Shown here: in pieces, positions 1 to 28,416 of the stretch | How the letters are laid out: each line of letters begins with the position of its first letter | Position numbering within the stretch: position 1 is the first letter of the stretch | Source of the DNA: Craspedostauros australis | Lineage: Eukaryota; Bacillariophyta; Bacillariophyceae; Mastogloiales; Achnanthaceae | DNA: 64,000 nucleotides | Reading direction: 5' to 3' | Assembly (NCBI GenBank): GCA_026770025.1 | Contig: JAMXDE010000035.1 | Coordinates: 62,001 to 126,000, forward strand | Translations under genes and position numbers: made by a program | Notes under the pieces: model-generated | Seen by the model: the letters and a program-made list of their open reading frames with translations, nothing else | Database searches by the model: none | Told to the model about the DNA's origin: nothing

Positions 1-252
1 TGCATGCGCCTCAGGAGTGTAGACTGATCTCTCAACAGCTGAACATGATGAAATGCACTTGTCATGAACAATGAAATGGACATGATGAGAGAGATTGCAA
101 TGATGATCATGAGGGGCAACTACAGGAGGCCATCAGCATCCTCATGGGCAAACGAGTTGACGATTTGAGAAACGAGTGTGTTGTTCTCACAGTTCTAAAA
201 CGGTACAGTTTAATAAGCATTAGACTATATCTATAACCCCGGATTTCCAACA
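1..252 (+). repeat. TE1 5' LTR, 3' portion only
   Basis: This stretch is identical base for base to 6753-7004 by eye. It ends with TTCCAACA, the CA end expected of an LTR. The beginning of the repeat is off the left edge of the window. Confidence 0.95.
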
Positions 253-264
253 CGTTTCGAAACG
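253..264 (+). other. 12-bp palindrome at the TE1 primer-binding-site position
   Basis: CGTTTCGAAACG is a perfect palindrome that starts at the first base after the 5' LTR, where reverse transcription normally starts from a tRNA annealed to the primer-binding site. The usual TGG (complement of a tRNA CCA end) is not there. TE2 has the same arrangement with CGTTTATAAACG. That it is the primer-binding site is an inference from position. Confidence 0.6.
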
Positions 265-339
265 TGACGATTGAAATCCTACGTTTCTACCACCATCAGC
301 ACAGCAACACTCGCCATCACCCTTACCACCACCATCATC

Positions 340-3300
340 ATGAGCTCCTTCTTTGGCAAGTCCGATCGTTACCCCATCGTGTTCGACGGAAAGAAGACCA
401 ACTGGAACGCATGGAGCGCTAAGTTCCTCACCCGCGCTGAACGCAAGGGCTACGGGAACTTTTACCTCCAAGCTGCGGATGCCGTGGTGGTGAAGGATGA
501 ACCTCTCGGACCATCCGGTCTTGCCCCGACGACGGGCGGAGACTCGGGTACGGGGGAACCCAAGAAGGTGTCAGCCATGTCCTACATGGAGAAGGCTGAG
601 TACCGGAAGGCGTTGGCGAAGTACGCGTTTGAAGAACTGACCATGGCTATCAACCATGAAACTCCGGAAGGCAATGTTGCCTTCATGGCTGTGCTGGGAT
701 GTAAGAGCGGTACCTACGAAGATGGTGATCCACGCAAGGCGTGGAAGGCGCTCGAGCGCATCTACGAGCAACGTACTGCTCCAGTGAAGGCGCAGTTGTT
801 GGCTCAACTCAACGGAATGCGGTTGAAGAAGGGCGAGCGCCCTGATTCGTTCCTCACCGAGATGGAGGTGCTCCGCAACCGTTTAGGGAATGCTGGCGTG
901 AAGATCGACGTCGAGCAATACAACATGCTTGTACTCAACGCTCTCGAGAGAGACTACGAGATGGACGTGAAGCTCATAGAGCTCAAGTTCGCAGGCAAAG
1001 AAGACAAGATGACAGTTGAAGACATCCGCGAGGCCGTGTGCCTCACCTACGACCGCCACCATACCAAACATGGTTCTAAGCGCGAAGGAGGCAACCATGG
1101 CAAGGAGGAGATGGCCTTGGCCGCAATCGGCGGGTTCAAGGGCAACTGTCGCAACTGTGGCGTCTACGGGCACAAGAAGGCGGACTGTCGCTCCCCTACA
1201 AAGAGCGGCAACGGCAAGCAAGGCGGTGGCGCCAAGAAGAACGGCAACCGCGGCAACGGCAACCGCAACAACGGTAACTTCAGTGCCGGAGGCTTCAACG
1301 GCAAGTGCAAGTTCTGTGGCAAGACAGGCCACAAGATCTTACAATGCTTCAAGTTGAAAGCAGCGATGAAGGACGCAGACTCAGCCAATGTGGCTACTGA
1401 CGGGATGGACGGCATGGACGACGTCGCGCTGGTCACCGTCGATGATGTGATGATGTGTCACGAAATCGCAGAGGATGGGAAAATCGCGCGCAACATCGAA
1501 AATGTGAGCGAAACCAAAATTCTCACCAACCACGAAATCGTGACAACACACACCCACGACACGGAGAGCGGCATCGAAAACCTCATGGAGGACATGGCTC
1601 TCATGGTCGTCGATGGAGACCTGGCCGCAGGATTCTACAACGGGACCAACAACAACAATGACGATGGATCGGTCGAGGTGGTTGGGATTCGCAACCCGAA
1701 CGACTACGGTTATTACGGACCACAAGTCGATGCAGATCGCATGATGAGTGACAACTTGTTCTCGTCTGATGAGAGCGAAGCTGACGAAACCGAAAGCAAC
1801 GAGATCGCGATGCCCGGCATCGACCTCCACGCAACGACCTCAGCAAGGCGACCAGAGCCAATTTACAACGTACGCCCCATCCGCTCCTACTTGGACGGAT
1901 TGATCGAGACCGCGTCTCGACGCGACAGAGACAACGCGTGGTGCCCACTGTGCCTAACCAAAGGGCCTTTGTTCTCGTGGTGTGTTGACTGCCCGTTCTG
2001 CCCGTTCTTGATCCTCATCCCAGGAGGACCAAAGGGAGACGTGCCTGTAACACCAGCCGAGAAGCTCCAACGCCGCCAAATCCTTGGAAGCGACAACCCT
2101 CCCTATGCGGTGAGATGCTCGCTGTCCAACGTGATGCCTGCGAACGATGTTCGTTCCGACCTCTCGCTCATCTGCTATGACGCGATGGAGGCATACCAAG
2201 GCATCGACGAGAACCGCATGGAAGTGCGGAGTGTGTACTTCATGCTGATGACCATCGGGGTGATCGGAGCATACGACGTGGCGAGCAAGGCAATCGACAT
2301 CAACGATCTGCTTGAGGAGAATCGTCTCCCGCCACTCCCGAAGAACCTGATCTCGCGTATGAGCGCCATGGCCGCGGATCGCCTGCTCTGGATTCACCAT
2401 CCATCGGACAACGGGGTGCGCGACGGACACATGTTCGACGAGTTGCCTATCTACGGGTACAACCATGCGCACGAACTAGCCATGGTGATCGGTGACATGT
2501 ACGACGCCGGCGAACGCAAGAAGACCATCGCGCCAGATCGCCACGAGGCAAACACCTGGCTTGGCGACTCGGGGGCATCGTGCCATCTCACCAACAGCGA
2601 CGAGGGCATGACCAACGTGCGCCTCGCGAGCTTCGCAGTGAAGGTGGGAAGCGGGCGCTACCTCAAAGCAACAAAGGTTGGCGACAAACGCATGAAGGTG
2701 ATGCAGAAGGATGGCTCGGAAGTCATCATCATCCTCAAGGCGGTGAAGTTCGTCCCCAAGCTTTGGGTCAACCTCCTGAGCATCACGAAGGCACTCGAAA
2801 GCGGATTCGACATCAGCAACAAGGGTGTGGTGATGGCTCTCGAGAAGAACGGATTGCGCATCCGTTTCGACCGCATCATGGCGACTCACAGTGGATTCGT
2901 TTCCGGCGTGAACATGGTGGCGGTCCCAGCCGAACATGAGATGGCAAACATTGGTGTGTCCACCGGCAAGGCGATCGACATCAATCAAATCCATAAAATG
3001 TTAGGCCACGTTGACACTTACACTATCTCGCGCACTGCTGCGCGATACGGATGGAATGTCATAGGACGAATGAATCCATGTGAGGACTGTGCTATCGGCA
3101 AATCTCGACAAAAATGTTTGTCGAAAATGTCACAGGCGAAGGCGAGCAGAGTTGGCGAACGGCTGTTCATGGATACCTCCAGTGTCCAGACGTACAGCTT
3201 TGGTCGCGGAAAATTCTGGCTCCTGATCATTGACGACTACAGCGACTACTGCTGGAGCTACTTCATCAAAGAGAAGAGTGAAGTGGGATCGAAGATGATG

Positions 3301-6144
3301 TCGCTCTTGAGATGGCTCAAGGCGAATCAGAACGTGACTGTCAAGAATATCAGATGTGACAACGCAGGAGAGAACTACAGCGCAGAGGCGCAGCTACTCA
3401 AGGAGGGATTCGGCCCGACGTTCGAATACACGGCAGCTTCAACTCCACAGCAGAATGGTCGCGTGGAACGGAAGTTCGCTGTGCTATACGGAAAGGTCAG
3501 GGCGATGCTCAATCAGACCCACCTACCAAAGCATCTACGAGGAAAGCTATGGGCCGAAGCAGCAAGAACAGCAACGCAACTCGAGAACATCATTGGAACG
3601 AAGTCGAGAGAACCGGCTTGCGTACTATTCAATGGGCAGACACCCACATACGTGGACGGACTGCGTTTGTTCGGCGAGATTGGCATGGTGTTCATTGGAG
3701 GTCGAGTGATCAAGGCGAAGCTGGACGATCGGTCCAAACCTGCTATGTTCGTCGGATACGGACAGTCACATGCGAGCGGTGTATACCGAATGATGAACCT
3801 CGCAACGGCAAGGATCCTAATCACGCGAGACGTGACATGGATGAACCAGTCGTATGGGCAATTCAAGGGTGTTGAGAATGCCAACAGATCGGTGATATAT
3901 GATCTGGATGACGACGACTCTGAGACTGGAAATGCAATCCAGAGAAAGAGAGTGACTTGGGGGCGAAGCTCGAATATCGCGAGGAACGCGAAGATCGGGG
4001 TCGCAGAGAGGAGCGGAAGAGCCGGACACACACAAGGAAACACAGATGACACCGCTCACGAGCAAGATGACTTGCTACCTACCCAAGGGGAAGAACCATC
4101 GTACAATGATGAGGGCGATGAATCCGGAAGGGACAATGACCGTGCGGGGCGGATCGATTCGGCTATTGAGCAATCGACCGCTCGCACTCCCGTGAGACCA
4201 TTGGCGCGCGTACCGAGGATGGTGAGTGCCCTGGCAGGCTACAACAACTCACCGATTCCCCAAGAGGAGAGGGAACGAGAATCAGAATCAGATTCGGAAT
4301 CGGAGGCAGACGAAGCATCAGCATCAGGAGATGAGGATGGCTATGATACTGCGCAGGAGACGATGATAGTCCCCGCGGCTACTGGAGGACCCAACTTCCA
4401 CACAGATGGGTCGATGTTCAACAGAGACGTCGCCAGCATGATGATCGATACTACCCAAGGGAGGATGAGACTTATCGACTTCATCGCTGCGAGTCAAGAT
4501 GTTGAGAACGAACGGAATGGTGAATGGTCCGAACAAGCTAATACGGCTGTGATGTTGGACCCAACGACGTTCGAGGAGTGCTGGGATCATGCTGATCCCG
4601 AGAAGAGAGAGAAGTGGCGTGGGGCTATCAACAAGGAGTTTACCGACATGGCCAGAAGAGGAGTATGGCAGAAGATCAAAAGGAGCGAGATGCCAGACGA
4701 CCGACGATGCGTGAAGACCAAGTGGGTGTTCAAGGAGAAGAGGAACGGCGTGTTCCGCGCCCGACTGGTTGCATGTGGGTACTCCCAGATTGCAGGAGTC
4801 GACTTCTCAGCGCATCATGCACCGGTGATCCACGACGCTACCTACCGAGTGATGCTAACCATGAAGATGCTTCTCCGAATGGACTGCATCATCATCGACT
4901 TCGAGACAGCATTCTTGCATGGGGATCTCGAAGAGGAGATCTACATGCAATGCCCGAAAGGCATGAGGCATGAGGCCAATGAATGCTTGTTGCTCAAGAA
5001 GACGATCTATGGGCTCGTGCAGAGCGCCAGGCAATGGAACAAGAAGCTGGTCGACATCCTGATCGAAATGGGATCCAGACAGAGCAAGGTGGATCCATGC
5101 CTCCTGATTCGGAATCAGGAAGGGAGACTGTTACTGATCGGAACCTACGTCGACGACTGCCTGTGCATCGGGGATGAACAGGAGCTGAAAGACCTCGTGG
5201 GGGACATCAAGGCAAAGCGATTCGGTATCAAGGTGGAAGAAGATCTTGAAGATTACCTCAGTTGTAAGATCAACTTCAACCACGATGAGACCAATTGCTG
5301 GGTGAACCAACCGCACATCATCAACAACATCGTCAGCACTTTCAAGGACGACGTGATGAAGCTGCAACGATACGGTACACCAGGGACGCCGGGACAAGGC
5401 ATCCAGAGAGAGAGTGACTCACCAAAGGTCGACAAGCAGCGACACAGCAACTACCGAAGCGGAGTGGGGATGCTGCTGTACCTGGTGAACCACTCAAGAC
5501 CCGACATCGCCAATGCAGTGCGAGAGCTGACCAAGGTGTTGGACGGACCAACGGCCGCAGCGTACAAAGAGATGCTGAGAGTCATGAAGTTCGTGTCGGA
5601 CACGAGGGAGTACGGTCTGAAGATGAGACCGAAACCTTTGGAGAACGATGCATGGAAGATTGTGGTGTACACCGATAGCGAGTTCGCTGGTGACAAGGAC
5701 AATCGCATCAGTGTGGGAGGACACCTCGTCCTACTACAGGGAGTGCCTATCATCTGGAGATCGAAGGCGCAACGCAGCGTGACGCTGAGCTCAACGGAGG
5801 CAGAATACGTTGCACTGTCGGAAGCAGGCAAGGAGATCCGCTTCCTGACGCAATTGATGAGTGACATCGGGTTGGGGATACACAAGCCGACAGACGTGAT
5901 GGTTGACAACGTGGGAGCAATCTTCATCGCTTCCAACCCATCTACATCGGCCAGAACCAGACACATCGATATCCGACATCACTTCATCCGAGAGCTGATT
6001 GCGAACAAAGAGGCTAGAGCCCGGTTCGTACATTCAGAGGACAACATCGCTGACGGCTTCACCAAGAACACGAAGAAAGAGATCTACGACAGACACAAGG
6101 GAGATATCATCCAGCCTCGGTCAGCAGTGGACCGAGAGGAGTGA
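340..6144 (+). CDS. TE1 Gag-Pol polyprotein, intact
   Basis: This is a single frame of 1934 codons from the first ATG (340); the same frame is open upstream to 271 but has no ATG there. In order it has: a Gag region; two CX2CX4HX4C zinc knuckles (first Cys near residues 270 and 323); a long acidic linker with an extra cysteine cluster near 535-554; protease with DSGA (D743); HHCC integrase zinc finger from H885; integrase DDE residues D945, D1007 and E1043; reverse transcriptase with first catalytic Asp near D1520 and YVDD at 1603-1606; and RNase H starting with D1779 (YTDSEFAGD) and ending in the usual ADGFTK-type tail. Gag and Pol share one frame with no frameshift. All catalytic residues I could locate are present, so the protein is probably functional. 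Confidence 0.95.
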   Translation: MSSFFGKSDRYPIVFDGKKTNWNAWSAKFLTRAERKGYGNFYLQAADAVVVKDEPLGPSGLAPTTGGDSGTGEPKKVSAMSYMEKAEYRKALAKYAFEELTMAINHETPEGNVAFMAVLGCKSGTYEDGDPRKAWKALERIYEQRTAPVKAQLLAQLNGMRLKKGERPDSFLTEMEVLRNRLGNAGVKIDVEQYNMLVLNALERDYEMDVKLIELKFAGKEDKMTVEDIREAVCLTYDRHHTKHGSKREGGNHGKEEMALAAIGGFKGNCRNCGVYGHKKADCRSPTKSGNGKQGGGAKKNGNRGNGNRNNGNFSAGGFNGKCKFCGKTGHKILQCFKLKAAMKDADSANVATDGMDGMDDVALVTVDDVMMCHEIAEDGKIARNIENVSETKILTNHEIVTTHTHDTESGIENLMEDMALMVVDGDLAAGFYNGTNNNNDDGSVEVVGIRNPNDYGYYGPQVDADRMMSDNLFSSDESEADETESNEIAMPGIDLHATTSARRPEPIYNVRPIRSYLDGLIETASRRDRDNAWCPLCLTKGPLFSWCVDCPFCPFLILIPGGPKGDVPVTPAEKLQRRQILGSDNPPYAVRCSLSNVMPANDVRSDLSLICYDAMEAYQGIDENRMEVRSVYFMLMTIGVIGAYDVASKAIDINDLLEENRLPPLPKNLISRMSAMAADRLLWIHHPSDNGVRDGHMFDELPIYGYNHAHELAMVIGDMYDAGERKKTIAPDRHEANTWLGDSGASCHLTNSDEGMTNVRLASFAVKVGSGRYLKATKVGDKRMKVMQKDGSEVIIILKAVKFVPKLWVNLLSITKALESGFDISNKGVVMALEKNGLRIRFDRIMATHSGFVSGVNMVAVPAEHEMANIGVSTGKAIDINQIHKMLGHVDTYTISRTAARYGWNVIGRMNPCEDCAIGKSRQKCLSKMSQAKASRVGERLFMDTSSVQTYSFGRGKFWLLIIDDYSDYCWSYFIKEKSEVGSKMMSLLRWLKANQNVTVKNIRCDNAGENYSAEAQLLKEGFGPTFEYTAASTPQQNGRVERKFAVLYGKVRAMLNQTHLPKHLRGKLWAEAARTATQLENIIGTKSREPACVLFNGQTPTYVDGLRLFGEIGMVFIGGRVIKAKLDDRSKPAMFVGYGQSHASGVYRMMNLATARILITRDVTWMNQSYGQFKGVENANRSVIYDLDDDDSETGNAIQRKRVTWGRSSNIARNAKIGVAERSGRAGHTQGNTDDTAHEQDDLLPTQGEEPSYNDEGDESGRDNDRAGRIDSAIEQSTARTPVRPLARVPRMVSALAGYNNSPIPQEERERESESDSESEADEASASGDEDGYDTAQETMIVPAATGGPNFHTDGSMFNRDVASMMIDTTQGRMRLIDFIAASQDVENERNGEWSEQANTAVMLDPTTFEECWDHADPEKREKWRGAINKEFTDMARRGVWQKIKRSEMPDDRRCVKTKWVFKEKRNGVFRARLVACGYSQIAGVDFSAHHAPVIHDATYRVMLTMKMLLRMDCIIIDFETAFLHGDLEEEIYMQCPKGMRHEANECLLLKKTIYGLVQSARQWNKKLVDILIEMGSRQSKVDPCLLIRNQEGRLLLIGTYVDDCLCIGDEQELKDLVGDIKAKRFGIKVEEDLEDYLSCKINFNHDETNCWVNQPHIINNIVSTFKDDVMKLQRYGTPGTPGQGIQRESDSPKVDKQRHSNYRSGVGMLLYLVNHSRPDIANAVRELTKVLDGPTAAAYKEMLRVMKFVSDTREYGLKMRPKPLENDAWKIVVYTDSEFAGDKDNRISVGGHLVLLQGVPIIWRSKAQRSVTLSSTEAEYVALSEAGKEIRFLTQLMSDIGLGIHKPTDVMVDNVGAIFIASNPSTSARTRHIDIRHHFIRELIANKEARARFVHSEDNIADGFTKNTKKEIYDRHKGDIIQPRSAVDREE

Positions 6145-6215
6145 ACGGGATGGTGGTGCAAGAGAGTGATGGAGTGTGGAGTCTATGGTATGATGTCGAT
6201 GCGACAATGGAAGGG

Positions 6216-7004
6216 TGTCAGGAATCGAGGGTGCGACTATGTCGTATTATCCTAGATTGCCGCACCTCCCATAATACCAAAAATAGACTGACCGATCTAC
6301 CAAAGTCGGACACGCTCCCAAGTCCATTGTGGACCTCCTCCTCTGTGTGTCAAGAGTATGACGGACGACGGACAGACGAATCGTGAGACATGGTTTGAGT
6401 GGATTGACGAACTGGCATGGCGAACGGAGGATGTAAAAGGGAGACTGGAACACCGAAGTGTTCCAAGCATGAGGGTTGACCGGTTAACCTGAAACATCTA
6501 TGCAAATGCGCTACCACAGTTGAGTCGCTCGGAACCCAGAACATGATTACGTGACTGACAGAGAACCAGCGAAGGAGAACAAAGCGCGGACTGGAACAGC
6601 ATCGAAGGACTGCACTGATCGTGCCAGAACTCCATGTTCTGAGCAAGTGTGAATGTTGGTGAACATGTGAGAAGAGTGAGTGAACAACACGGAAGAGTGT
6701 ACTGAATGAGTGATGGATGTCCGATGAGAAGAGAGTGAATCGAGCATCGGCATGCATGCGCCTCAGGAGTGTAGACTGATCTCTCAACAGCTGAACATGA
6801 TGAAATGCACTTGTCATGAACAATGAAATGGACATGATGAGAGAGATTGCAATGATGATCATGAGGGGCAACTACAGGAGGCCATCAGCATCCTCATGGG
6901 CAAACGAGTTGACGATTTGAGAAACGAGTGTGTTGTTCTCACAGTTCTAAAACGGTACAGTTTAATAAGCATTAGACTATATCTATAACCCCGGATTTCC
7001 AACA
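6216..7004 (+). repeat. TE1 3' LTR, 789 bp
   Basis: The LTR starts TGTCAGGAATCG right after the purine tract and ends TTCCAACA. The start is supported by a second, diverged LTR at 8800 that opens with the same 12 bases and also shares ATTGCCGCACCTCCCA shortly after. It contains a hairpin at 6447-6464 (GGAACAC, loop CGAA, GTGTTCC) that could lie in the transcript. Confidence 0.9.
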
Positions 7005-8799
7005 GTCTTGTGGAGGAAGAGTCACACCATGTCTCTTCCTCTGTTGTGACTCGTTTTTCATGACGTGGAATCCGTTCCCTGTGACGTAGAAGACGGATCA
7101 GCGAGAGCAAACACGAAATAGCTCTAAATATCCAATCGCCGATTCTCCCAAAAGCGAGCAAACCAGTGGCAACAAGGGGCCAAAACTCCACAACTAGTGT
7201 TATCGTGAGTGCATCAACTGCGATCTGGACCTCGTATGTGCGCTGAGGTGGTGCGTTTTTTGGCGTCTCCATGTGTCGGTGTCGCTCTTGGGCGTTGTGG
7301 CCAGGACGAACGCGCACTCGATTTCGCGACACGGGATTGTTTGGTGAATGGTATTGCTGTGTGTTTTGGGGGGCACCAAAACACGATCACTTGGTGTATG
7401 TTTGGAGAAATGGTCGCCAAACGAACTTTGGTCCTCCTCCGTTGCCGCACACGCACCCACACAATCCGAACTTGTCAATGACCAAGGGTAGGAGAAGCCG
7501 GAACATGGGGTTCCGTGACACGTTACCACGCCATGCATCACAGAGACGAAAAGCTCCTGACACAGAAGTGCTCCTTCTGGCGCTTGAAGATAGATACGTC
7601 TGGTAGAGAGCTGCTCCTGTTGGAATCGCAGCGCAATAAATCAATGGAGGGGTTCTAGTGGCCCCAGAACTTGGGTACTAAGACACACCAGGCTATCCGA
7701 ATTTCAGGGGGAGCCCCGCAATAGAGACTGGTCTAGGCACAACCGAGACAGCCACTTTCGTGAGGATTAGGGTCTTTGTAATGCTCATGTGACGTCACGC
7801 TTCGCTTTCTTCCTTTCCCACCTCCCACACCGTTTCATCAAACTATTTGTTTCTTCATGGTACCAACATGGGTTTTCGCATTTTTGCCCAATCTGAACCA
7901 AAATGATTGATTCTACTGTCCAGATCTCTCCCTTTTTGCATCTTGTGTGTGCCAATCAACGCATGATTCTTGTCTCTTCTTGTTTCTTTCTGCCCAAACA
8001 GCAGCCACTGTTCAAAAACAAGGACGATAATGCCAACAATTGAGTACTTTGATATGTGGTCTACTCGTGTTGTTGGCAACAAGGAGGAGCGTTGGTTTCT
8101 TGTGTGAGGTGATCCACACTCAACTCTCAACACAAACATGAAGAAACTTGTTGGCAAGACTGCCAATCAATGCTGCCTCTTCCCTCCCTTCTTTCCAACT
8201 CAACTTCATCTGCAGAGCAAGTATGTAGCTCATGCAGCAGTGGGATCGAGAGTGCAAGAAAAGGCACATCATGCCCAGAACCCAAGCCATGCCAATAAAC
8301 AGTCCCCAGCAACAAATAAGTCCAACACAACAGTTGCCACCCTCCCCATCTTCAGCCACTCCATACTTGGCATTCAACAAACACCCTTCCATCCATCCCT
8401 GCCATGCCATGTCATGCCAATGTGTCTCAAGAGATATCTTTGACACCTGGGGGATACTCTATCCTGTCTTGCATCACACCAAGCAAAGACCGCACCAGTT
8501 GGGGTGGATGATCTGATAGGAATGGGCATACATTTGCTTTGCAATCACAAAGTGATGGAGGTGTCATTCCATGTGGAACCTTGTGACTGTTACAGAGACG
8601 TGGTGCACTGAGTCATAGACTTGTCATGCTATGTGCATGTCACCAATCAACACAGCAATGGCACCATCATTCTTTGCAACAATCACGGCAGATATACATG
8701 GTGTTTTCAATGTTCCCTTGCGCTGTCTTCACCATCTCATCAGACCACACATCACCAATGTAAAAAGCAGAAAGCGATGCATCGAGTGAAACATCCATC
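7005..8799. other. Intergenic stretch with no supported gene
   Basis: This is about 1.8 kb between TE1 and the solo LTR. The only open frames are short, overlap one another on both strands and carry no recognisable motif. I saw no tRNA, LTR end or tandem repeat in it. Confidence 0.6.
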
Positions 8800-9613
8800 T
8801 GTCAGGAATCGGGTGTTCTGAAACATCGAATTGCCGCACCTCCCAAGAGTAGGAAGTCGAATGTCAAGAAATGCTATGCTACCGCAAGTCACTCTTTGGA
8901 TCTTTGTGACAGAAAATGTGAGCTACACGCGTCTTGTGGCGGAGAACGCCACGTGCCGAATGAGAACCAGATCGTGACGTTCGTGACCTCAATGCAGGAA
9001 TGCAAATCACACATGCATATCGCAGGGGGCAGGGATGTTGGAATCGTGACCAACATCACGATACATGCGACTATGGCCCCCATGTTGTAACGAATGAAAA
9101 GAGAGTATTCAAGACATGCTGATGTCACGAAGAGTGAGATGGCCTGTGAACGGATCACCGATGACAAACCAGCAAAAGATTGGTGAAGTGTTGGTGATGT
9201 ATCGGAGAGGTACCGGAAATGTATTGGAGATGATCGGAGATAAGCGATGGTAAGAAGGTGAAAAAGCAATCATCCAATCCTTTCCTGTGAAGAATGGGAG
9301 ACCGTGATCCGATCGAATGAAACGAGCCAAGTGATGCCTGTGACTCAAAGATGTCTAAGCCGACAAAACTATTGGAGGGAAGACAACGTGTTGAGTGCAC
9401 GGACATGGGGCGATTGGTGGTGCATGCATGCCCATGATGAATTTGCGATGAATGCAAGAAGAATGCATGCTAGACCAACAGATGAACCCATGGAGGTCTC
9501 AGGAAGAGATCGAACTTTGGAAGATGAGAGCAATGAAGAGCTCACAGTTCAGAGAAGTAGATCCTAACAAATGATTAGCTTTCTACTATCATCACCACCC
9601 CAAATTTTCAACA
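8800..9613 (+). repeat. Solo LTR of a TE1-related family, with 6-bp target duplication
   Basis: It begins TGTCAGGAATCG and ends TTTTCAACA. It shares blocks with the TE1 LTR near both ends (ATTGCCGCACCTCCCA near the start, CTCACAGTTC near the end) but is clearly diverged in the middle. TCCATC stands immediately before it (8794-8799) and immediately after it (9614-9619). No internal region or second LTR adjoins it, so it is best read as a solo LTR left by recombination between the two LTRs of a full element. Confidence 0.8.
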
Positions 9614-10317
9614 TCCATCAGGCACCAATGGACAATCACCTCATCAACACCATTTGTTGGCAAGTTCCGTTGACGGATACCTTGCGATCGTGGAAGACAG
9701 TGTTGGTTGATAGTTGTTCGTTTGCTATTTCATTGAGTTTTTCGAGATGTACATGCGTGTATATGTCAAGATGTACATGTATATGTTCATCGTTCACCCG
9801 TTGTTCTCTTATACATGTTTGGACGGTAAAACTACATTCGTGTCAATAGTATGATGTGATTTGTCAGAATCACAGCGGAAATGGAACACACAAAAATGAG
9901 CAGAATTTCTGGAGGAAATTGCAATCAACGATTTCTGAGAGAATCAGGAACATCGTCCGTCCATCCATCAATGGAAACGTATGGTATCGAGCGAAGCTCG
10001 ATGTACCTCCCAACTAAACCCCAGATGACGATATCATCTGACAGATCATCGCATCATCAATGGAACGTGACATCTGGAGAGCAGAAGGACGCCTACTGAC
10101 GTTGACAGGATGTCATCATGTCACCACATTGACATCTGTCTCCATGTCAGAAGCAGAAGGTGAAGATTCGATGACCGAAGGGCATCGAGATCATGGATAC
10201 ACAAAGAGGAGTTCAAGTGGTAAGTACTCATGGAGTAGGAACCAGCAATGAACTCATGGAGCATCAAATGCGGAGTATACATCGAACACGGCGTGTCATG
10301 TAACATGAACACGGAAT

Positions 10318-10320
<3 letters not shown>

Positions 10321-10354
<34 letters not shown>
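10321..10354. repeat. (GA)17 microsatellite inside an LTR
   Basis: There are 17 uninterrupted GA units. The TE2 LTRs carry a shorter CT/GA tract at the corresponding place, so the microsatellite is part of the LTR family and has expanded here. Confidence 0.95.
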
Positions 10355-10357
<3 letters not shown>

Positions 10358-10719
10358 CGATAGCAGCGAGAGAGCATCTCACGTACTGACTCATAGTCGG
10401 AGACTCAATCTACAAAACAGATAAATGTGCCAAGAGCATTGGGCAAGAGAACAGACACTGAGAGGATTGGAGTGCCAATGTAATGAAATAGCAAACAGAA
10501 CAACTATCAACCAACACCGTCTTCCACGATCGTTGGCTTCCAATCATGGAACTTGCCAACAAAGGTGTCAAGGTGTCACCACGTGGACATCTGTCTCAAC
10601 ATCAGATCAAGAAAGCAAAGATTCGATAACAGAAGGACATCGAGATTGTAAGTATGCAAGGAGGAGAGCAGTGTGGGAGTACTGGCGACTACTCATGGAG
10701 TAATGGGCCAATGGAGCAT

Positions 10720-11354
10720 ATTAGCGCAACGCTAAATCTCAAACAATAGCGACACCTGTCGACCAATCAAAAATCTCCACTTTTCTCACCTTTTCCGTTC
10801 CGAACGGAAATTTTGGTCGAAAATTCGTTGTGTCAAATTTGTGTCACATTTCACGTCGCAAGAATCGTTTTCCCGTCAATCACAGATCCAAAATGTCGCG
10901 GAAATTGATTTCTTGCCAAGATGAACCACTCTGCCCAATCAGGACAGACTTGGATCTTGGGTGTGACATGTGCGAATCTTACCACGACCTTCTCAAGTGA
11001 ATACGATAAATCGTGTGATCGTACTACTAGCAACATCGTGAGAAGATGAAATTCACAACATGGGGTATCGCGGTGTTTTGTTCATTGACTTCTGCTAACT
11101 CTACTTCACGCAGTAACACGCACATTTGTCGTGTTGTCTCCGTGTTATTTTCACTTCCAATTGCATGAGACCATGTCATGTCTCTCTCATGCTCACAGTT
11201 CCAAGAATACAATCTTGTGAGCTCACCTGCATTTCTACCACTCATATGAATAACACTCTAATACAAACACTCATCCTCACCCCAACAACGATCTGATCAC
11301 TCTACGTTTTGGTGCGGAATCCCATCTTCGATTTCATTCTAACAGAGCACAAAA
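10720..11354. mobile_element. Unclassified ~635-bp insertion inside an old LTR
   Basis: This DNA interrupts an LTR copy. Flanking it are CAATGGAGCAT (10709-10719) and CAATGGAGTAT (11355-11365), an 11-bp near-perfect direct repeat (10 of 11) that looks like a target duplication. It starts with a small hairpin (TTAGCG, CAA, CGCTAA at 10721-10735) and holds a second palindrome built on TTCCGTTC/GAACGGAA near 10793-10809. I see no terminal inverted repeats and no coding frame. It could be a non-autonomous DNA transposon; the class is not clear. Confidence 0.5.
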
Positions 11355-11639
11355 CAATGGAGTATGGACTGCATGCATAGTACACACTGAGTATGGAACA
11401 TTGTGTGGAGTGAACACGCAACATTGAGAGAGAGAGAGTAGGAGCAACAGCAAGAGAGGATCTCGCATACCAACTCATAGTCAGGCAAACAAGAGAGACG
11501 CGCCAAGAGCATCAGCCAAGAGAACAAGAGACGCCAAGAGGATCGGAGTGCTCACGTAATGAAATAGCAAACAGAATTGTAACAATCAACACCATCTTCC
11601 ATGACCGCAAGGTATCCATTCATGGAACTTGTCAACACC

Positions 11640-11710
11640 TGTTGAGATGTATATATGTGTATGTGCATCATTCACCCATTGTCCTTCTAGCCGTCATACA
11701 AGTGCTGTCA
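11640..11710 (+). repeat. Left part of an older LTR interrupted by TE2
   Basis: It begins TGTTGAGATGTATATATG, matching the start of the TE2-family LTR, and stops at the TE2 target duplication CTGTCA (11705-11710). The LTR resumes at 18995. It follows another LTR end (11637) by two bases. Confidence 0.65.
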
Positions 11711-12493
11711 TGTTGGCAAGTTCCGCTCACGGTAACTTACGATCGTGGAAGATGGTGTTGGTTGATAGTCGTCTGTTTGCTATTTCATTACGTTGGCACT
11801 CCGATGCTCTCGGTGTCCGTTCGTTCTCTTGCCCGATGCTCTCGGCGCTTCAATCTGTTTCGTAGATTCGGTCTCCGACTATGAGTCGGTACGCGAGATC
11901 CTCTCTGTATTCTCTCTCTCTCTCTCTCTCACTATCGTGTGCTCGTGCTACACGATACTCCGTGTTCGATGCGTGCTCCGCATTCGACACTCCGTTCATT
12001 CAGTACTGACTTCTACTCCATGAGTACTTACCATTTGAAGTTCACCTTCAGTATCCATGATCTCATGGGTCATCGTATCTTTGCCTCCTGCTCTAACTTG
12101 GAGACAGCTGTCGACGTGGTGACATGTTGACATCCTGTCGACGTCAGTAGGCGTCCTTCTGCTCTCCAGATGTCACGTTCCATTGGTGATGCAGTAGTCT
12201 GTCAGATGATATCGTCATCTGAGGTTTAGTTGGGAAGTACCTCGAGATTCTCTTGGTACCATTGATGCATGGACGGATGATCTTCTGATTCTCTCAGAAA
12301 TCGTTATTTGCAAATTTCCTCCAGAAATCTTGCCCCTTTTTGTGTGTTCCATTTCCCCTGTAATTCTGACGAATCACAGCATACTATCGACACGAGTATA
12401 GTTATACCGTCCAAGTGCGTATGAGAGAATAACGGGTGAACGATGCACATATACACGTACATCTTGACATATACTCACATGTACATCTCGACA
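11711..12493 (-). repeat. TE2 3' LTR, 783 bp
   Basis: Read on the - strand it starts TGTCGAGATGTACATG and ends ACTTGCCAACA. It includes a GA-rich microsatellite around 11923-11942. It matches 18212-18994 with one difference seen. Confidence 0.93.
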
Positions 12494-12513
12494 CCCTTCC
12501 TGTGTGCATTCGG

Positions 12514-15500
12514 TCATTCGAATGTTCTCGATGTGTCAAGGTATGACTTCTCATGTTCACGTTGTAAGTCGGCCTTGATGTTCTTGGTGAATCCGTCGCT
12601 TGTGTTCTGCTCGGATTTGACAAAAATGATTTCGATGGTTCTGTTGATTACCATATTCCTCACGTAGTGATGGCGCACGTCAATGTGCCGCGATCGTTGG
12701 GATGTTGATGGGTTCTTGGCGATGAAGATTGCCCCGATGTTGTCCACGCGGACCTTGATTGGTGTCTTCACTGGGATGCCCACACTTTCGAGTAGCTGCA
12801 CAACGAAGAAGATCTCCTTTGCCGCTTCGGGAAGGGCAACGTATTCTGCTTCGGATGAGCTGAGTGTGACGGCCTTCTGTGCTTTGGATCGCCAAAGGAT
12901 TGGTACCTTGCACAGGTATATGATGAATCCCCCTACGCTGATTCTCGTGTTCTTGTCTCCTGCATATTCGCTATCGCAGAAGAGCTCCATGTCCCAGCCG
13001 TCGTCGTCTGGACGTGCTGGATGGATCTTCAATCCATAGTCCTTTGTATCGATCACATACTTGATGATCCGATACATCTCCTTCATTGCAGCCTTGGTGG
13101 GCCCGATCAATACCTTGGAGAGTTCCCTCACAGGATTCGCGATGTCTGGTCGCGAGTGCTTGATGAGGAAGAGTAGCATACCGACGCCTCAGCGGTATTC
13201 GGCATGTTCTTCCGGTCCGACCTTCTGCAGTCCGTTATCTTCGGATGGTCGTACGATGATTTGACCCGGGGTTCCCGGTGTCCCATAACGTTGCATCTTC
13301 TCAACCTTGGCTCCGAACTCTTCGATGAGGTGTCGGATGAGATGTGGTTGACGCAATGTCGCTCTAGTCTTGTCATGGTTCAGTTCGATGTTGCAGCTGA
13401 GGTAGTCTCCGAGTCCGCGCTCGATTGTCACCTTGAACTTGCTGCCTTGGATGTCCTTCAGGAATGTCTCCAGTGCCTTGGAGTCTCCGCAACAGAAGCA
13501 ATCGTCCACGTAGATGGCCACGATCATGCTTCCTTCGTTCGTCTTCCTGTAGAATAGGCACGGGTCTGCTGCGCTCTGTTCGAAGTTGATATTCTTGAGG
13601 GTCGATACCAACATCTTGAACCATTGCCTGGCGCTCTGCACAAGTCCATAGATTGGCTTGTGTAGGGTCAGGGCTTCGTCTTCGATTTCCTCATCATCTG
13701 TAGTTTCATTGTTGGAGTTGTCGATCATCTCGTCGCTGAGTTCGTCACTCGTCTCGTTGGATGATGGATCGCTCTCATAGCCTTCTTCCTTTCGACCTCG
13801 TTCGTTGAAGTCTGCGAGCTCACGCAGAACTCTGGGAATACTCTTCCCTGCAGTTGACTTGGGATTAGCTTCTCCCTTCCTGCCTCGTGCTTCGTGACGT
13901 CGGATCCTTTCCTTTCTAGTTATGTCACGCTTGTTTGGTTTGCTTGGTGGAAATCTAGATGGTGTGTCATGTGTAGACCTTGCTGGTGTGTTCGGAGGAG
14001 TGACACCCGTCTCGTCATCGGCTTCGTCGCCGGAGGGTAGGATTTCGTCATCCTCATGATTGGATTCGCTCCGATCTTCCTCGTCATTCTGGATTAGTTG
14101 AGTCACTACTCCGTCGTCCTCATTATCCTCATCATCGCTGTCTGATAGGATGTAGTACCTGTTGCTGTCAGCGAAAGATACTCTCTTCGCTTCCGATGTT
14201 TGACGCGTTGCCGTCCTTGGCGTTGCTCCCTTCCGTCCAATGGTTGTGAAGCCGTCTGCGTCCGTTGTTCCTGTTTCGTTGGATATGTTCGGTGCTGATG
14301 CCCAGCCACGGAACTGTCCGTATGATTGGTTGAGCCACTTGATGTCCCGTGAACAGATGAGTGACTTGGTCGATGGTCTGTACATGTTGTAGACCCCTGA
14401 TGCATGTTGGTGTGCATATCCAATGAACACCATCTCTTCTCCTCTGTTCTTGAGTTTGGCGGTGATCCCGCCGTAGGTAGTCTTCACAACACCCACCTCT
14501 CCAAATGTGCGGAGTGCATCCGCATATGGTGGATCGTTGCCAAAGAATTGTCGATGTGGTGACTCTTTCTGATTCTTCGCTACAGTGATGTTGGCAATGG
14601 CAGTGGCAGTGCTAGCAGCTGCTGCCCACAGGCCATGCCTATACTCTTCGTCGAGCTGTGCTCCGTTGAGCATGGAGCGAATCTTGGTGTAGAGGTACGC
14701 GAACTTGCGTTCCACTCTGCCGTTCTGTTGCGGCGTGTTCGATGCCGTGTATTCGAATTTCACGTTGAGTCCTGCATCGATGAGAATATCCTCCGTGGAT
14801 TTGTTCTCTCCGCTGTTGTCACCTCTGAAGATGATCTGTTGGTCACCAGTCTGTGACTTGATCGTCTGGATGAATCGTTTGATGTATCCTGGTTGATCAC
14901 TCTTGTTCTTGAGAAAGAAACTCCAGCAGTGATCCGTACAGTCGTCCACGATCAGGGTCCAGTAGCGTTTATCTCCGAAGCTTATGTGTTTAGTATAACT
15001 AATGTCAATGAAGAACCGTTCGCCGCGGCGAGTAGCTCTTGGAATGGTTGCCTTTGGAATATTCTTCACTCTTGCGTTCGCGACCGCGCAGTCACGACAC
15101 ACCGGCATCTCGCCGATGATTTTCCATCCGTACTGAGCGGCCGTCCGCTTCATGGTCTCGAGTGGCGCGTGGCCGAGCATTCGGTGTAGGTTCACCGCGC
15201 TGATCTCCTTGGATGAATTCTTGACGATAGCTGTGCAAGCCTTATCGTCGTCTGTTGGCATGATGGGATGCATCTGCACTCCCGTGATGAATCCGTTGGA
15301 TGTGGGGAAGACTCGGTCGAATACGATCTTCATTCCGGATCCGTTGATGATGTCCATCAGAATGCCATTGTTACCAAGTTGGTAACCGTTGTACAGGGCC
15401 TTGTTCGTGGAGAAAAGGTTTACCGCCATTTTCGGTGTGTACTTCACGTCATCGAGCCGGATGATGTGGCCAGTGTTGTTTCGCTGCTTGACCTTCAAGC

Positions 15501-18129
15501 GAATGGATCCCATCTTGGGAGAATCCAGCTTCGTGCTGTCTCCCACTTGGACGAAGGACTTGATATGCCGTACGTTGAAGAGAGCGGCGTCTGAATTGAC
15601 GATGTGACACGAAGCTCCGCTGTCGGCGAGCCAGGTGTCCTTGTTGACCTTGTCCTTGTACTTGGTGCTCAGCTCGTGGAGTTGCTCCACAGCTGCCGCA
15701 GCTATCTCGTCGTTGAAGCTGCCGTCATCATCGTCTTCGTGGACTCCATCTTCGTTGTATGGAGGATGATGATCTCCGTCATCCATGTCATCGGGTAATT
15801 GCGCGTAGTCCGATGGAACCGTACTGTTCCGATGAGATCCTGTGGCTGGATCGTATGGATGGACCCGTGGTCGTTCGCGTAAGAGTACGCGCATACATCC
15901 TCCAAGGATGTAATGAAGATCCGTCTCTGGGATTGTCTCTGTCTCGGCTGCTTCCAGTATGCGATTGATCACAACTGAATTGGCGAGAATCTCTTCAATC
16001 GATCTGAAGTTCTCGGATAGGATGGATCCCATCATGTTGACCCATATCGGTCTGAGTACTCCTCGTTCGATTCCTGGGAATAGGCTCACTCCTGCTTCCA
16101 TCACTGCATCGAAGATGAGCTGCTTCTGGATCACCAATGCTGTCTCTGTTGCATATGGGACGGTGTCATGACGATGGAGATAGTTGGACCTGTTGGGATC
16201 ATCGATTGGTGGGAAGTCGATATTCCCTGGGTACACGACACGCTCGTTTGGATTGAAGCTGTCGTCTGGATGATTGCCGTCCTCGGATTCGTCGCTGTCA
16301 TCCTCGTCGAAGATGCCCGATCTGTTGTTCCCCGCCGCTGGAGGAGGAGGCGCCGCGCCGCGGTCCGCCTCATTGTCTTCGTCTGCGCCGTCCTCGTCGG
16401 CGTCGTCGTCGTCATCGCTCATGGCCTCTTCGATGTCGCTATCGTTGGCCTCGTCGTCCATCTCAGCTTCGTCGCCGTATGAACCGATCAGGTCGTGCGC
16501 GTTGAAGCAGCATTCGTAGCTCACTTCGCGTCTTGGATCCACCTCGTGGATGATTGGCTCCTCGCTGAGCCATTCCGGGATGATCTCATCATCCTGTACT
16601 TCGTCGTCACTCCCGACGTATTCGAAGTTATCGAAGAAGGAGTCTTCGATGTAGTCGTCGGACACCAACATGCAGAGCGGCATGTCCTTCGCAGAGAGTA
16701 CCATCTCGTGCCCGCTCTTGTCGTGTCCTTGCGTTGCTGTGTTGGCCTGTTCGTCGGCCTTCTTCTTCTCGTTGAACTTCTTCTTTCGGCACTCCGCCTC
16801 GCGATGTCCGAAGATGCCGCAGTAGTTGCACTTGCCCTTGAAGCCGCTTCCCTTGTTGCGCTTTCCGTTCATCTTGTTGTTGTTGTTGTTGTTGTTTTTC
16901 TTGTTGTTCGATTTCTTGCGTTCTGGGCAATCGGCGGATCTATGGCCATACACGCCACAGTTGTGACAAGTACCCTTGAAGTTACCGGTGCTTGTGAAGC
17001 CGGTGTCGTTGCTCTTCGTGTTACTGTCTTGGAAGTCGTCCACGTATGCCTTGCCTCCTCTGTGCGTGGCGTATGCAGTACGGAGTACTCCTCTGATCGT
17101 GTTGATGGTAACCAGTTCCGGATTGAACGTGAGTTGGTGTTGGAAGTTCACGATGTGGGTTCTGTATTCCACGCTCACCGTGCTGAGGATCTGCATGATC
17201 ATTTCCTCGTCCGAGATCTCATACTTGACATCGTGGAGACGCGATCGTAGAATCTCGAGTTGCGTGATGTAGATGTCGGGGTCCGTGTCTCTCTTCATCT
17301 TTTCGTTGTTGAATTGGCGCTTGAGTTTGATCTTCGTCACCGCGTCGGATGGTCGGAACTTCTCCGAGAGAACGTTCCACGCTGCGTGTGCGTCTCCTTC
17401 GGGGTAGTCGTCGGAGATGCATTGGTTGATGTACTGGATGGCCTGCTTACCTTTTCCTTTCTCTGCATCCATCATGAGGATCAGATCGCTGAAGCAGTCG
17501 CATCCCAATTCGTAGATCTCCTCCATTGCTTCCTTGGCTTCACCGGCGGCTGCCGCGATCTCGCTCACTGTTGGCACCTTGGTCTTGCCCAACATCACGT
17601 CTCTCGTCTTCTGTGCACGAGCGTATGCCTTCGCTTGGGACTCCCATGCGCTGTAGTCTTCCTGTTCACCGCTGAACATCGGCGCCTTGATGCGTCGCTT
17701 GTTCACGTTGGCTGATGTCGCCATGTTGGTTCGTTGTTTCGTCGTTGGTGCGCTCGCGCCCTTGATTTCCGTCGGTTTCTGTGTTGCCGATTCTTCGATT
17801 TTCGCCTGTTGTTGCGCGGAGATTGTTTTCGTCACAAATTCTCCTCTTGGTGGTGTCTCACTTTTCCCACCCTGTTTGGCTGTGCGAATGCTCTTCGTCA
17901 CACCAGTCTCCTCTTGCTTGATCGCCTTGAGAATCCTCTTCTCCTTACAATGTAGTCTTGCAGACCGTTCTTCTTCGGTCTCGTCGATCGCGCTTGCGTC
18001 TGCGCCTGATAGGACAGTAGCCGCGGCTGCTTCCTTCTCTTCTCGTGGTGGAGTCTCACTCGCACCTTCTTCTCTCTTGATAGTCGGATTGGACAGAGGG
18101 ATCTCTTTCAATTCCTCTTCCTCGCTCAT
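12514..18129 (-). pseudogene. TE2 gag-pol, broken by internal RT deletion and a stop codon
   Basis: The frame starts at ATG 18129 and has: a charged N-terminal extension of about 130 residues; Gag; two zinc knuckles (first Cys near 388 and 434) separated by an Asn/Lys run; a very acidic linker; protease DSGA (D836); integrase DDE (D1042, D1104, E1140); and YVDD at 1540-1543. Compared with TE1, the segment just before IYGLVQSARQW is missing in frame: the acidic linker joins directly to it near 13660-13690. This removes the fingers and the first palm half of the reverse transcriptase with its first catalytic Asp. A TGA at 13189-13191 then interrupts the frame where TE1 has a Ser codon; the same frame resumes and encodes RNase H to the stop at 12514. 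Gag, protease and integrase look intact. Confidence 0.9.
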
Positions 18130-18199
18130 TCAGCCTGCTGCTCTTGAATGATGTTCGTCTTCCTCGCACGATACGATTCGCGGGCTCGCCCTGATCTAT

Positions 18200-18211
18200 C
18201 GTTTATAAACG
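18200..18211 (-). other. 12-bp palindrome at the TE2 primer-binding-site position
   Basis: CGTTTATAAACG is a perfect palindrome abutting the inner edge of the TE2 5' LTR. It matches the TE1 palindrome except for the two central bases. There is no tRNA 3'-end complement beside it. Its role as primer site is inferred from position. Confidence 0.6.
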
Positions 18212-18994
18212 TGTTGGCAAGTTCCGCTCACGGTAACTTACGATCGTGGAAGATGGTGTTGGTTGATAGTCGTCTGTTTGCTATTTCATTACGTTGGCAC
18301 TCCGATGCTCTCGGTGTCCGTTCGTTCTCTTGCCCGATGCTCTCGGCGCTTCAATCTGTTTCGTAGATTCGATCTCCGACTATGAGTCGGTACGCGAGAT
18401 CCTCTCTGTATTCTCTCTCTCTCTCTCTCTCACTATCGTGTGCTCGTGCTACACGATACTCCGTGTTCGATGCGTGCTCCGCATTCGACACTCCGTTCAT
18501 TCAGTACTGACTTCTACTCCATGAGTACTTACCATTTGAAGTTCACCTTCAGTATCCATGATCTCATGGGTCATCGTATCTTTGCCTCCTGCTCTAACTT
18601 GGAGACAGCTGTCGACGTGGTGACATGTTGACATCCTGTCGACGTCAGTAGGCGTCCTTCTGCTCTCCAGATGTCACGTTCCATTGGTGATGCAGTAGTC
18701 TGTCAGATGATATCGTCATCTGAGGTTTAGTTGGGAAGTACCTCGAGATTCTCTTGGTACCATTGATGCATGGACGGATGATCTTCTGATTCTCTCAGAA
18801 ATCGTTATTTGCAAATTTCCTCCAGAAATCTTGCCCCTTTTTGTGTGTTCCATTTCCCCTGTAATTCTGACGAATCACAGCATACTATCGACACGAGTAT
18901 AGTTATACCGTCCAAGTGCGTATGAGAGAATAACGGGTGAACGATGCACATATACACGTACATCTTGACATATACTCACATGTACATCTCGACA
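18212..18994 (-). repeat. TE2 5' LTR, 783 bp
   Basis: It has the same length and the same ends as the 3' LTR at 11711-12493, with one base difference noticed between the two. Confidence 0.93.
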
Positions 18995-19680
18995 CTGTCA
19001 ATGTATATTTGATCTACACGCAGTAACCGAATGAAATACATCACAGACTTGGTACGTCCGCCCATCCAAAGTGTTATCGAAAACTTGTCATGACTCAATT
19101 CTGAGAGCATCAGAGATTCGGTATGGCCGCCGTCCGTCAAACACGTGGCGTCGAATCTGAACTGATCTACTTCCCAACCAAACCTGAAGTGACACTTCCC
19201 TCGACGACCTCAAGTATCATCAATGGAATGTGGAATTGGCAGAGCCATGGAACAGTGACGAATGATGTCAACACAGGAGACGTCATTGCCACATCATGGG
19301 TCATCTCCGCATCAGAACAAGATTACGAAGATGCAATGACCGAGAGCAGACGAGATCTTCGAAAGTGCAACATGAGAACCATGTGAAGCATATACAACTA
19401 CATGCAAGACAAGAGACCGATATGAGAGAGACAGACGACTGACGCATAGAGCACGTGTATGATTACTATGAGAGAGAGACTCGTAGAGACGGAAACGCAA
19501 GAGATCATCTTGCGTGAACTCATAGTCGAGCTGTCGAGTAATCAAGAGAGATCGAGCGAACTATCGAGCGAGAGATATCCGCAGAGATACTCAACCACCA
19601 ACATACTGAAATAGCAAACAGAAACAGCAATTGCATCACCGTCTATCAGTATGGAGATACTGTGCGCGAAACATGTCAAT
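18995..19680 (+). repeat. Right part of the older LTR interrupted by TE2
   Basis: After the CTGTCA duplicate the sequence continues in the order of a diverged + strand LTR of the TE2 family. Recognisable blocks are TACTTCCCAACCAAACCTGA, ATCATCAATGGAA, the GA-rich stretch near 19465 and TGAAATAGCAAACAGA. It ends with ATGTCAAT next to the C tract. Together with 11640-11710 this makes about 760 bp, close to one LTR length. Confidence 0.65.
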
Positions 19681-28137: not shown

Positions 28138-28210
<73 letters not shown>

Positions 28211-28254
28211 TCGTCATCGTCATCGTCATCGTCGTCGTTGTTGTTGTTGTTGTT
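28138..28254. repeat. (GTC)24 trinucleotide tract with interrupted tail
   Basis: There are 24 uninterrupted GTC units (28138-28209), then ATC/GTC alternation and GTT units to about 28254. It lies about 160 bp beyond the 3' end of the ATPase gene. On either strand it yields only homopolymer peptides (Asp, Val, Arg, Ser), so the frames seen there are not genes. Confidence 0.95.
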
Positions 28255-28416
28255 GCATATGTCTTCGTCCACGCGCATGCAGCCATTCTCACCCTTGCCG
28301 ACATCACCGACTCTCTCTATGAAGAACGTTTCCGCATTTTGCCTTTCTGAGACGCTCGATCATTGTATGTGGTTGGATCACAGGATGATTTGTTGATATC
28401 ATTGGACTCATCATTA

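Follow-up and report, generated by a model that had tools for sequence, protein, structure and literature searches.

The first 19 kb of the window, the 64,000-nucleotide stretch of the Craspedostauros australis contig analysed here, hold two young Ty1/copia insertions, TE1 on the plus strand and TE2 on the minus strand (Table 1). Both are Ty1/copia LTR retrotransposons by their LTRs, reverse transcriptase (RT), gag and target duplication, the last seen as a flanking repeat for TE2 only, where TGACAG lies on both outer sides (11705-11710 and 18995-19000). The domains RVT_2, Retrotran_gag_2, SH3_retrovirus and Pol_BBD matched in both elements, which are 38-47% identical in the matched pieces; TE1 carries the RT motifs YVDD and SRPDI. 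An earlier sequence-only reading of this DNA had called the LTRs of TE1 and TE2 unrelated, and BLAST agrees, returning nothing except an 11-base chance match (E 0.23). Their common end, CCAACA, is read as the usual integrase-recognised terminus because TE1 also starts with TGTTGG. The LTRs of TE2 are identical at 782 of 783 positions, yet the pol frame inside the element (12514-18129, minus strand) is stopped; TE2 is perhaps a young but already defective insertion that was moved by other copies.

Table 1. Features of TE1 and TE2, with positions in the window.
Feature	Positions	Strand	Evidence or remark
TE1 5' LTR, visible 252 bases	1..252	+	starts before the window; 0/252 mismatches against 6753-7004
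TE1 palindrome CGTTTCGAAACG, primer-site position	253..264	+	sequence
TE1 extended 16-bp palindrome CACGTTTCGAAACGTG	251..266	+	reaches 2 bases into the LTR
TE1 leader ACGTTTC, complement of the palindrome's 3' arm	281..287	+	resembles CHSeq2 of fungal GalEa, from the available part of its description
TE1 gag-pol ORF, 1934 aa, Ty1/copia	340..6144	+	RVT_2, Retrotran_gag_2, SH3_retrovirus, Pol_BBD
TE1 3' LTR, 351 bp, TGTTGG...CCAACA	6654..7004	+	start placed by the TGTTGG end
TE2 5' LTR, 783 bp, TGTCGAG...CCAACA	18212..18994	-	1/783 mismatches against the 3' LTR
TE2 palindrome CGTTTATAAACG, primer-site position	18200..18211	-	sequence
TE2 gag-pol ORF, 1646 aa, Ty1/copia, broken copy	13189..18129	-	RT profile matched in the later part only, then stop
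TE2 3' LTR	11711..12493	-	pairs with 18212-18994

In most LTR elements reverse transcription is primed by a borrowed tRNA, and the place where it would bind is taken by a palindrome in both elements. The TE1 junction reads GGATTTCCAACA (LTR end), then CGTTTCGAAACG, then TGACG; that of TE2 reads CTTGCCAACA, then CGTTTATAAACG, then ATAG. Perfect 12-bp palindromes directly after both 5' LTRs had been the starting observation of the sequence-only reading; their sequence and coordinates are exact, and the LTR pairs confirm the boundary. The unusual thing about them is their position, not palindromy as such: the window holds 17 palindromes of 12 bases against about 16 expected, the chance that a given 12-mer is a palindrome being 1/4096 at equal base use. 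Nor does the motif exceed chance in the window alone, where a search allowing three mismatches gave three matches, two of them exact, against 1.91 expected.

Across the genome the site is abundant and nearly always self-complementary. Searching the 74.8-Mb assembly for CCAACACGTTTNNAAACG with at most two mismatches returned 708 matches (336 and 372 on the two strands) against 43 (24 and 19) for the reversed control. The exact form, CAACA followed by CGTTTNNAAACG (that is, CAACACGTTTNNAAACG), occurs 579 times (271 and 308), against none for the reversed control. Its centre is AT at 313 sites, CG at 238 (one of them the reverse reading of a single place, C19:170566), TA at 22 and another dinucleotide at 6, so that 573 of the 579 are perfect palindromes; the non-palindromic centres AC and GT were seen among the 100 matches listed. 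At C19:170561-170582 both strands give the same reading of the site, flanked at either end by CAACA. We considered this as a fossil of dimer priming and rejected it: it is an ordinary TE1-type copy whose leader begins TGTTG, with no second LTR. In IMG/VR, 89 stretches matched the site, 19 with a palindromic centre, which is compatible with chance; tblastn found no match to the TE1 or TE2 proteins there, and RT searches using TE1 and the third family described below found no relatives.

Sampling elements by RT rather than by the motif ties the site to several families. Copia RT domains were sought independently of the site, and 150 of 1493 candidates were scored; TE1-type RT loci are absent from these 150, and the TE1-type loci used here were chosen by motif. 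The top-scoring RT group proved to be a third copia family, with an LTR end, TTTCAACA, whose boundary was set by the point at which 17 copies diverge, and with a sister group that is 77% identical. In both groups CGTTTTAAAACG follows the LTR directly, inside an 18-bp palindrome (one copy each), and a TA-centred site lies 3.0-3.2 kb upstream of RT in 21 of 21 RT-selected loci from both groups. For the TE2 type, the sample comprised RT loci on contigs C1-C9 that match profile positions 9-231, nearby members having TE2-type LTR ends. The site lies 4.7-4.9 kb upstream of RT in 38 of these 42 loci (36 AT, 1 AC, 1 GT) and is missing from four, counted with AT and CG centres covered throughout C1-C9 and other centres up to C5:1.57 Mb. 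Most RT-selected loci thus carry the palindrome, where the sequence-only reading had allowed that other family members might lack it. On the same contigs the site was found upstream of RT in one of two group G loci and in none of the loci of groups B (0/4), D (0/2) and E (0/3).

Several deeply split, old copia families therefore carry a self-complementary site where the tRNA primer normally binds. In RT/RNase H the third family is 34-36% identical to TE1 and group B 32-35%; the third family is hardly nearer to TE1 than group B is, so families that share the site are separated from one another about as deeply as from a group that lacks it. Where the LTR edge was set independently of the motif (TE1, TE2 and the third family), the site begins right at that edge, with no base in between. 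TE1 and the third family include the LTR's terminal A in the palindrome; most of the TE2-type copies read do not.

Group B carries a tRNA-like sequence at the same place. Its LTRs are about 190 bp long (TGTGCAG..CTGCACA), and in one copy (L188, C5:1651734-1651793) CGCTTCCTCTGCGCAACG follows the 5' LTR. The first 14 bases of CGCTTCCTCTGCGCAACG are the complement of GCGCAGAGGAAGCG, which lies within AGCTGCGTGGCGCAGAGGAAGCG at three places in the genome; a fourth match, with three mismatches, is without it. We take AGCTGCGTGGCGCAGAGGAAGCG to be the 5' part of an initiator methionine tRNA. The group B site accordingly appears, from its sequence, complementary to the D-arm of a host initiator-tRNA-like gene, and an internal tRNA fragment would be its primer. 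A missing TGG would not by itself be remarkable in a copia element (internal tRNA fragments prime some of them); a cut at the D-arm site of group B would be further 5' than the one that makes the half-tRNA of Drosophila copia. Finding a tRNA-like site at this position supports the position of the palindrome as a primer site.

No tRNA that we predicted matches the palindrome. The set comprised 26 ARAGORN predictions, mainly from 30 of 63 tRNA loci, with some near-duplicates and some organelle-like members. Against these, the best complement of the palindromic site was 5-6 nt when anchored at the LTR edge and 7-8 nt when unanchored (site plus flank), and no host tRNA fragment complementary to each site, the sequence-only reading's own counter-case, turned up among them. 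The anchored test gave group B a score of only 5, its own tRNA being outside the 26, so the test cannot exclude a tRNA among the remaining loci. Readings of the palindrome as an anticodon loop, worked by hand, were rejected because the flanking stem stays unpaired. As a separate observation on the tRNA genes, contigs C83 and C89 carry the same ones, shifted by one of two fixed offsets (36512 and -29745), as would happen if a single circular organelle molecule had been linearised at two places.

Centre and arms of the site vary by different rules. Three centre states are known, and an unconstrained centre would give three palindromic states by chance about once in 64 cases; the suggestion that self-complementarity is kept between families is borne out by these three different centres across deeply split families. 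The arms, CGTTT and AAACG, hardly vary across families. Changes at arm position 5 occur in 2 sites against 3 in the control, at position 4 in 6 against 5, and at position 3 in 11 against none, 7 of these 11 being the same uncompensated CGATTATAAACG. A matching change in the other arm accompanies only 3 of the 19 arm-changed sites (CGTTGGTCAACG, CGTGTTAACACG and CGTCTGGAGACG), no more than chance. Over such divergence, pure self-complementarity should leave room for compensated arm changes; that the arms stay near-invariant indicates that their sequence is read by something as well. Here lies the main tension in the data: the palindromic centre argues for self-pairing, but the arms point to some other reader or an additional one.

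Two variants bear on how strict the palindrome is. CGTGTTAACACG, after CAACA at C4:859326-859342 (minus strand), is the sole perfect palindrome among the three compensated sites, and may reflect either chance or a further family. CGATTATAAACG follows CAACA in seven copies on five contigs (C4:1024786, C9:2035021, C17:412404, C17:431809, C22:955830, C22:978848 and C23:887082); its spread over five contigs indicates that an imperfect palindrome may still be mobile, and the seven copies are possibly a subfamily moving with one.

Predicted RNA energies place the effect of the centre in a duplex between two RNAs. The bare 12-mer hairpin has -0.1 kcal/mol for all seven centres tried, with the centre in the loop. 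The self-duplex of the bare 12-mer depends strongly on the centre: -15.9 kcal/mol for CG, -12.4 for AT, -11.8 for TA, -16.3 for GC (a centre with no example among the matches listed), -5.9 for AC, -5.9 for AA and -9.4 for GT. With neighbouring bases, self-duplexes reach -26.7 kcal/mol in TE1, -25.2 in the third family and -14.6 in TE2. Because the centre affects duplex energy and not hairpin energy, a palindromic centre makes sense for an RNA-RNA duplex. The arms do fold as a small hairpin in both folding windows tried in five of nine sequences (TE1, L016, L027, L091 and L093) and in the shorter one only in L010; TE2, L001 and L020 lack it in both. A stem between LTR end and leader was not consistent, with duplex z-scores from -0.2 to -3.6 across seven sequences.

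Leaders of the TE1 type have a second, downstream complement. CGTTTC lies 17 nt past the palindrome in 13 of 13 of them, all motif-chosen (TE1, L006, L015, L016, L018, L020-L022, L025, L026, L028, L030 and L187; a fourteenth row, the reverse reading of L187, was left out), and could pair with the 3' arm. No such complement is present in the 60-nt TE2-type leaders or in L091 of the third family; L093 has only the 5-nt AAACG.

We propose, tentatively and at somewhat less than an even chance, that a large set of copia elements uses the palindrome as primer site, with the element's own RNA as the likeliest primer. In LTR elements minus-strand DNA begins at the 3' end of the primer, a point marked by the LTR edge. 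That 3' end has to be complementary to the bases that immediately follow the LTR, CGTTT, so the primer should end in ...AAACG, as the element's palindrome itself does. In the proposed scheme, two packaged genomic RNAs would pair via the palindrome, over 12 bp or, with neighbouring bases, up to 18 bp. A nuclease, perhaps the element's RNase H, would then cut one strand at the 3' edge of the palindrome; RNase H makes the primer of Tf1. The new ...AAACG-3' end would lie opposite the first base after the LTR, from where reverse transcriptase could extend it into the LTR, and minus-strand DNA would begin precisely where the LTR ends. The primer would in turn be copied during plus-strand synthesis, which would rewrite the site as its own complement and so keep it palindromic. 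In a more specific version of this scheme, each of the two packaged RNAs would prime the other from its palindrome, so that dimerising and priming would be a single event and every cycle would restore the palindrome; we consider that version rather unlikely.

Self-priming would explain the zero offset from the LTR, the palindromic centres and the lack of a matching tRNA among the 26 predictions. Alone it leaves the invariant arms unexplained, though Gag, RT or the nuclease may need them. Against it stands that a primer RNA continuing beyond the palindrome would have to stop being a template after 12 nt; no stop signal is known.

The main rival is a host RNA that reads the arms. A conserved tRNA fragment or other small RNA ending in ...AAACG would prime through the invariant arms, with the palindromic centres partly coincidence. 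Near-invariant arms across families whose RT is only 34-36% identical are what a fixed partner would be expected to leave, and an internal tRNA fragment seems to serve as primer for group B of the same genome. One RNA, however, cannot match AT, CG and TA centres fully, a point that also counts against the sequence-only reading's idea of priming by one fixed tRNA fragment. The weak anchored complements among the 26 predictions (5-6 nt, mainly 30 of 63 loci) and the failure of any anticodon-loop reading of the 12-mer to yield a paired stem argue the same way, and we consider a host primer unlikely. Improbable by a further step is that the palindrome serves only as a dimer-linkage site for packaging two genomic RNAs, priming being left to another RNA or contact. 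Precedents are at hand in the available portions of the literature: dimerisation of Ty1 RNA begins with kissing loops, the Ty3 initiation complex dimerises through palindromes at tRNA ends, and the dimer sites of retroviruses are loops with a palindromic sequence; here, too, the hairpin seen in five of nine folded sequences in both folding windows exposes a self-complementary 4-nt loop. The retroviral dimer site, as described there, exists besides a primer site, whereas the palindrome directly abuts the LTR, the place at which a primer's 3' end has to pair.

The remaining alternatives carry little weight. Dimeric DNA-binding proteins typically recognise invariant half-sites around a looser centre, and in TE1 and the third family the palindrome reaches into the end of the LTR, so a transcription factor or integrase might bind a DNA-level site just downstream of the LTR. 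Such a protein would not need a palindromic centre, and the exact abutment to the LTR in three families, together with the tRNA-like site of group B at the same place, fits a primer site better; we think a protein site very improbable. Most improbable of all is priming of the Tf1 type, suggested by the sequence-only reading, in which the 5' end of the transcript folds back onto the site. It would agree with the lack of a tRNA match among the 26 predictions, and the partial sources at hand describe tRNA-independent priming in Tf1. The longest LTR complement to site plus flank, however, measures 6 nt in each of the three families (TE1, TE2 and the third, whose LTR was represented by the first 493 bases of L091); of 200 shuffled LTRs, 115, 179 and 184, respectively, contain one as long. 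Because the LTRs hold no complement beyond the shuffled level, fold-back is unsupported.

A palindromic site in this position has a precedent in fungi; the sequence-only reading had known of no description, while allowing that it might have missed one. According to the available part of a 2017 paper (PMC5445492), fungal GalEa copia elements have no tRNA primer site and instead a Conserved Hairpin Site: CHSeq1, 9 bp that make up a palindrome together with the LTR's final A and read CTGATCAGT or CTAATTAGT in 85% of families, and its complement CHSeq2, 12-41 bp downstream. Its authors proposed the hairpin site as a stand-in for the primer site and stated in that text that no described model fits. 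Similar inverted repeats are noted in the accessible portion of a paper on bivalve TRIMs (PMC6934838). As far as these texts extend, the diatom site shares with GalEa a short palindrome directly after the 5' LTR, variation at symmetric positions, conservation across families and the lack of a tRNA site, here against 26 predictions; TE1-type leaders also have a downstream complement, 17 nt after the palindrome. The diatom site differs in being CGTTTNNAAACG, 12 bp long and wholly outside the LTR, although extended into it in some families, and does not have the CHSeq1 sequence. None of the TE2-type leaders read shows a downstream complement, and in the third family L091 lacks one and L093 has only 5 nt; the fungal RT/RNase H motifs are QTDD and CQPEA where TE1 has YVDD and SRPDI, and the host is different. 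On this partial view of the fungal work, position and principle are already known; the sequence, its length, the host and the RT motifs are new.

Other known systems resemble the site in part, on what the available sources say. Tf1 also does without a tRNA and uses element RNA as primer, as proposed here, but its site complements the 5' end of the transcript and is not palindromic, whereas here the LTR holds no such complement. Half-tRNA priming in Drosophila copia belongs to the same copia superfamily, and group B fits this kind; the palindromic site, by contrast, matches none of the 26 tRNA predictions and occurs with three different centres. Self-complementary sequences also lie in the 5' leader as Ty1 kissing loops and as retroviral dimer sites, but the retroviral dimer site lies beside the primer site and the palindrome here occupies it. 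The words tRNA, palindrome and priming were not found in the accessible text of Maumus and colleagues on diatom retrotransposons (PMC2806351), and a term search of diatom papers, as far as their text was available, returned no unusual primer site. Open-licence literature on palindromic or self-primed sites held no report of this one; among exact 12-mers only CGTTTATAAACG was found there, in a paper that by its title concerns scallop immunity.

With about 570 self-complementary sites in several deeply split copia families beside a tRNA-type group, this genome offers a direct test system for tRNA-free priming. The unexplained hairpin site of fungal GalEa becomes a possible case of a wider mode, and if dimer priming were true, a palindromic priming mode would exist in both fungal and algal copia elements.

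The window holds further repeats. Just past the 3' end of TE2, at 9648-10561 and 11530-11644, lie degraded pieces that resemble its LTR (77-89%) in mixed orientation. At 28140-28255 a long CGT/CAT/TGT triplet repeat lies near the 3' end of a 1421-aa ORF (28417-32682, minus strand) with an AAA ATPase domain.
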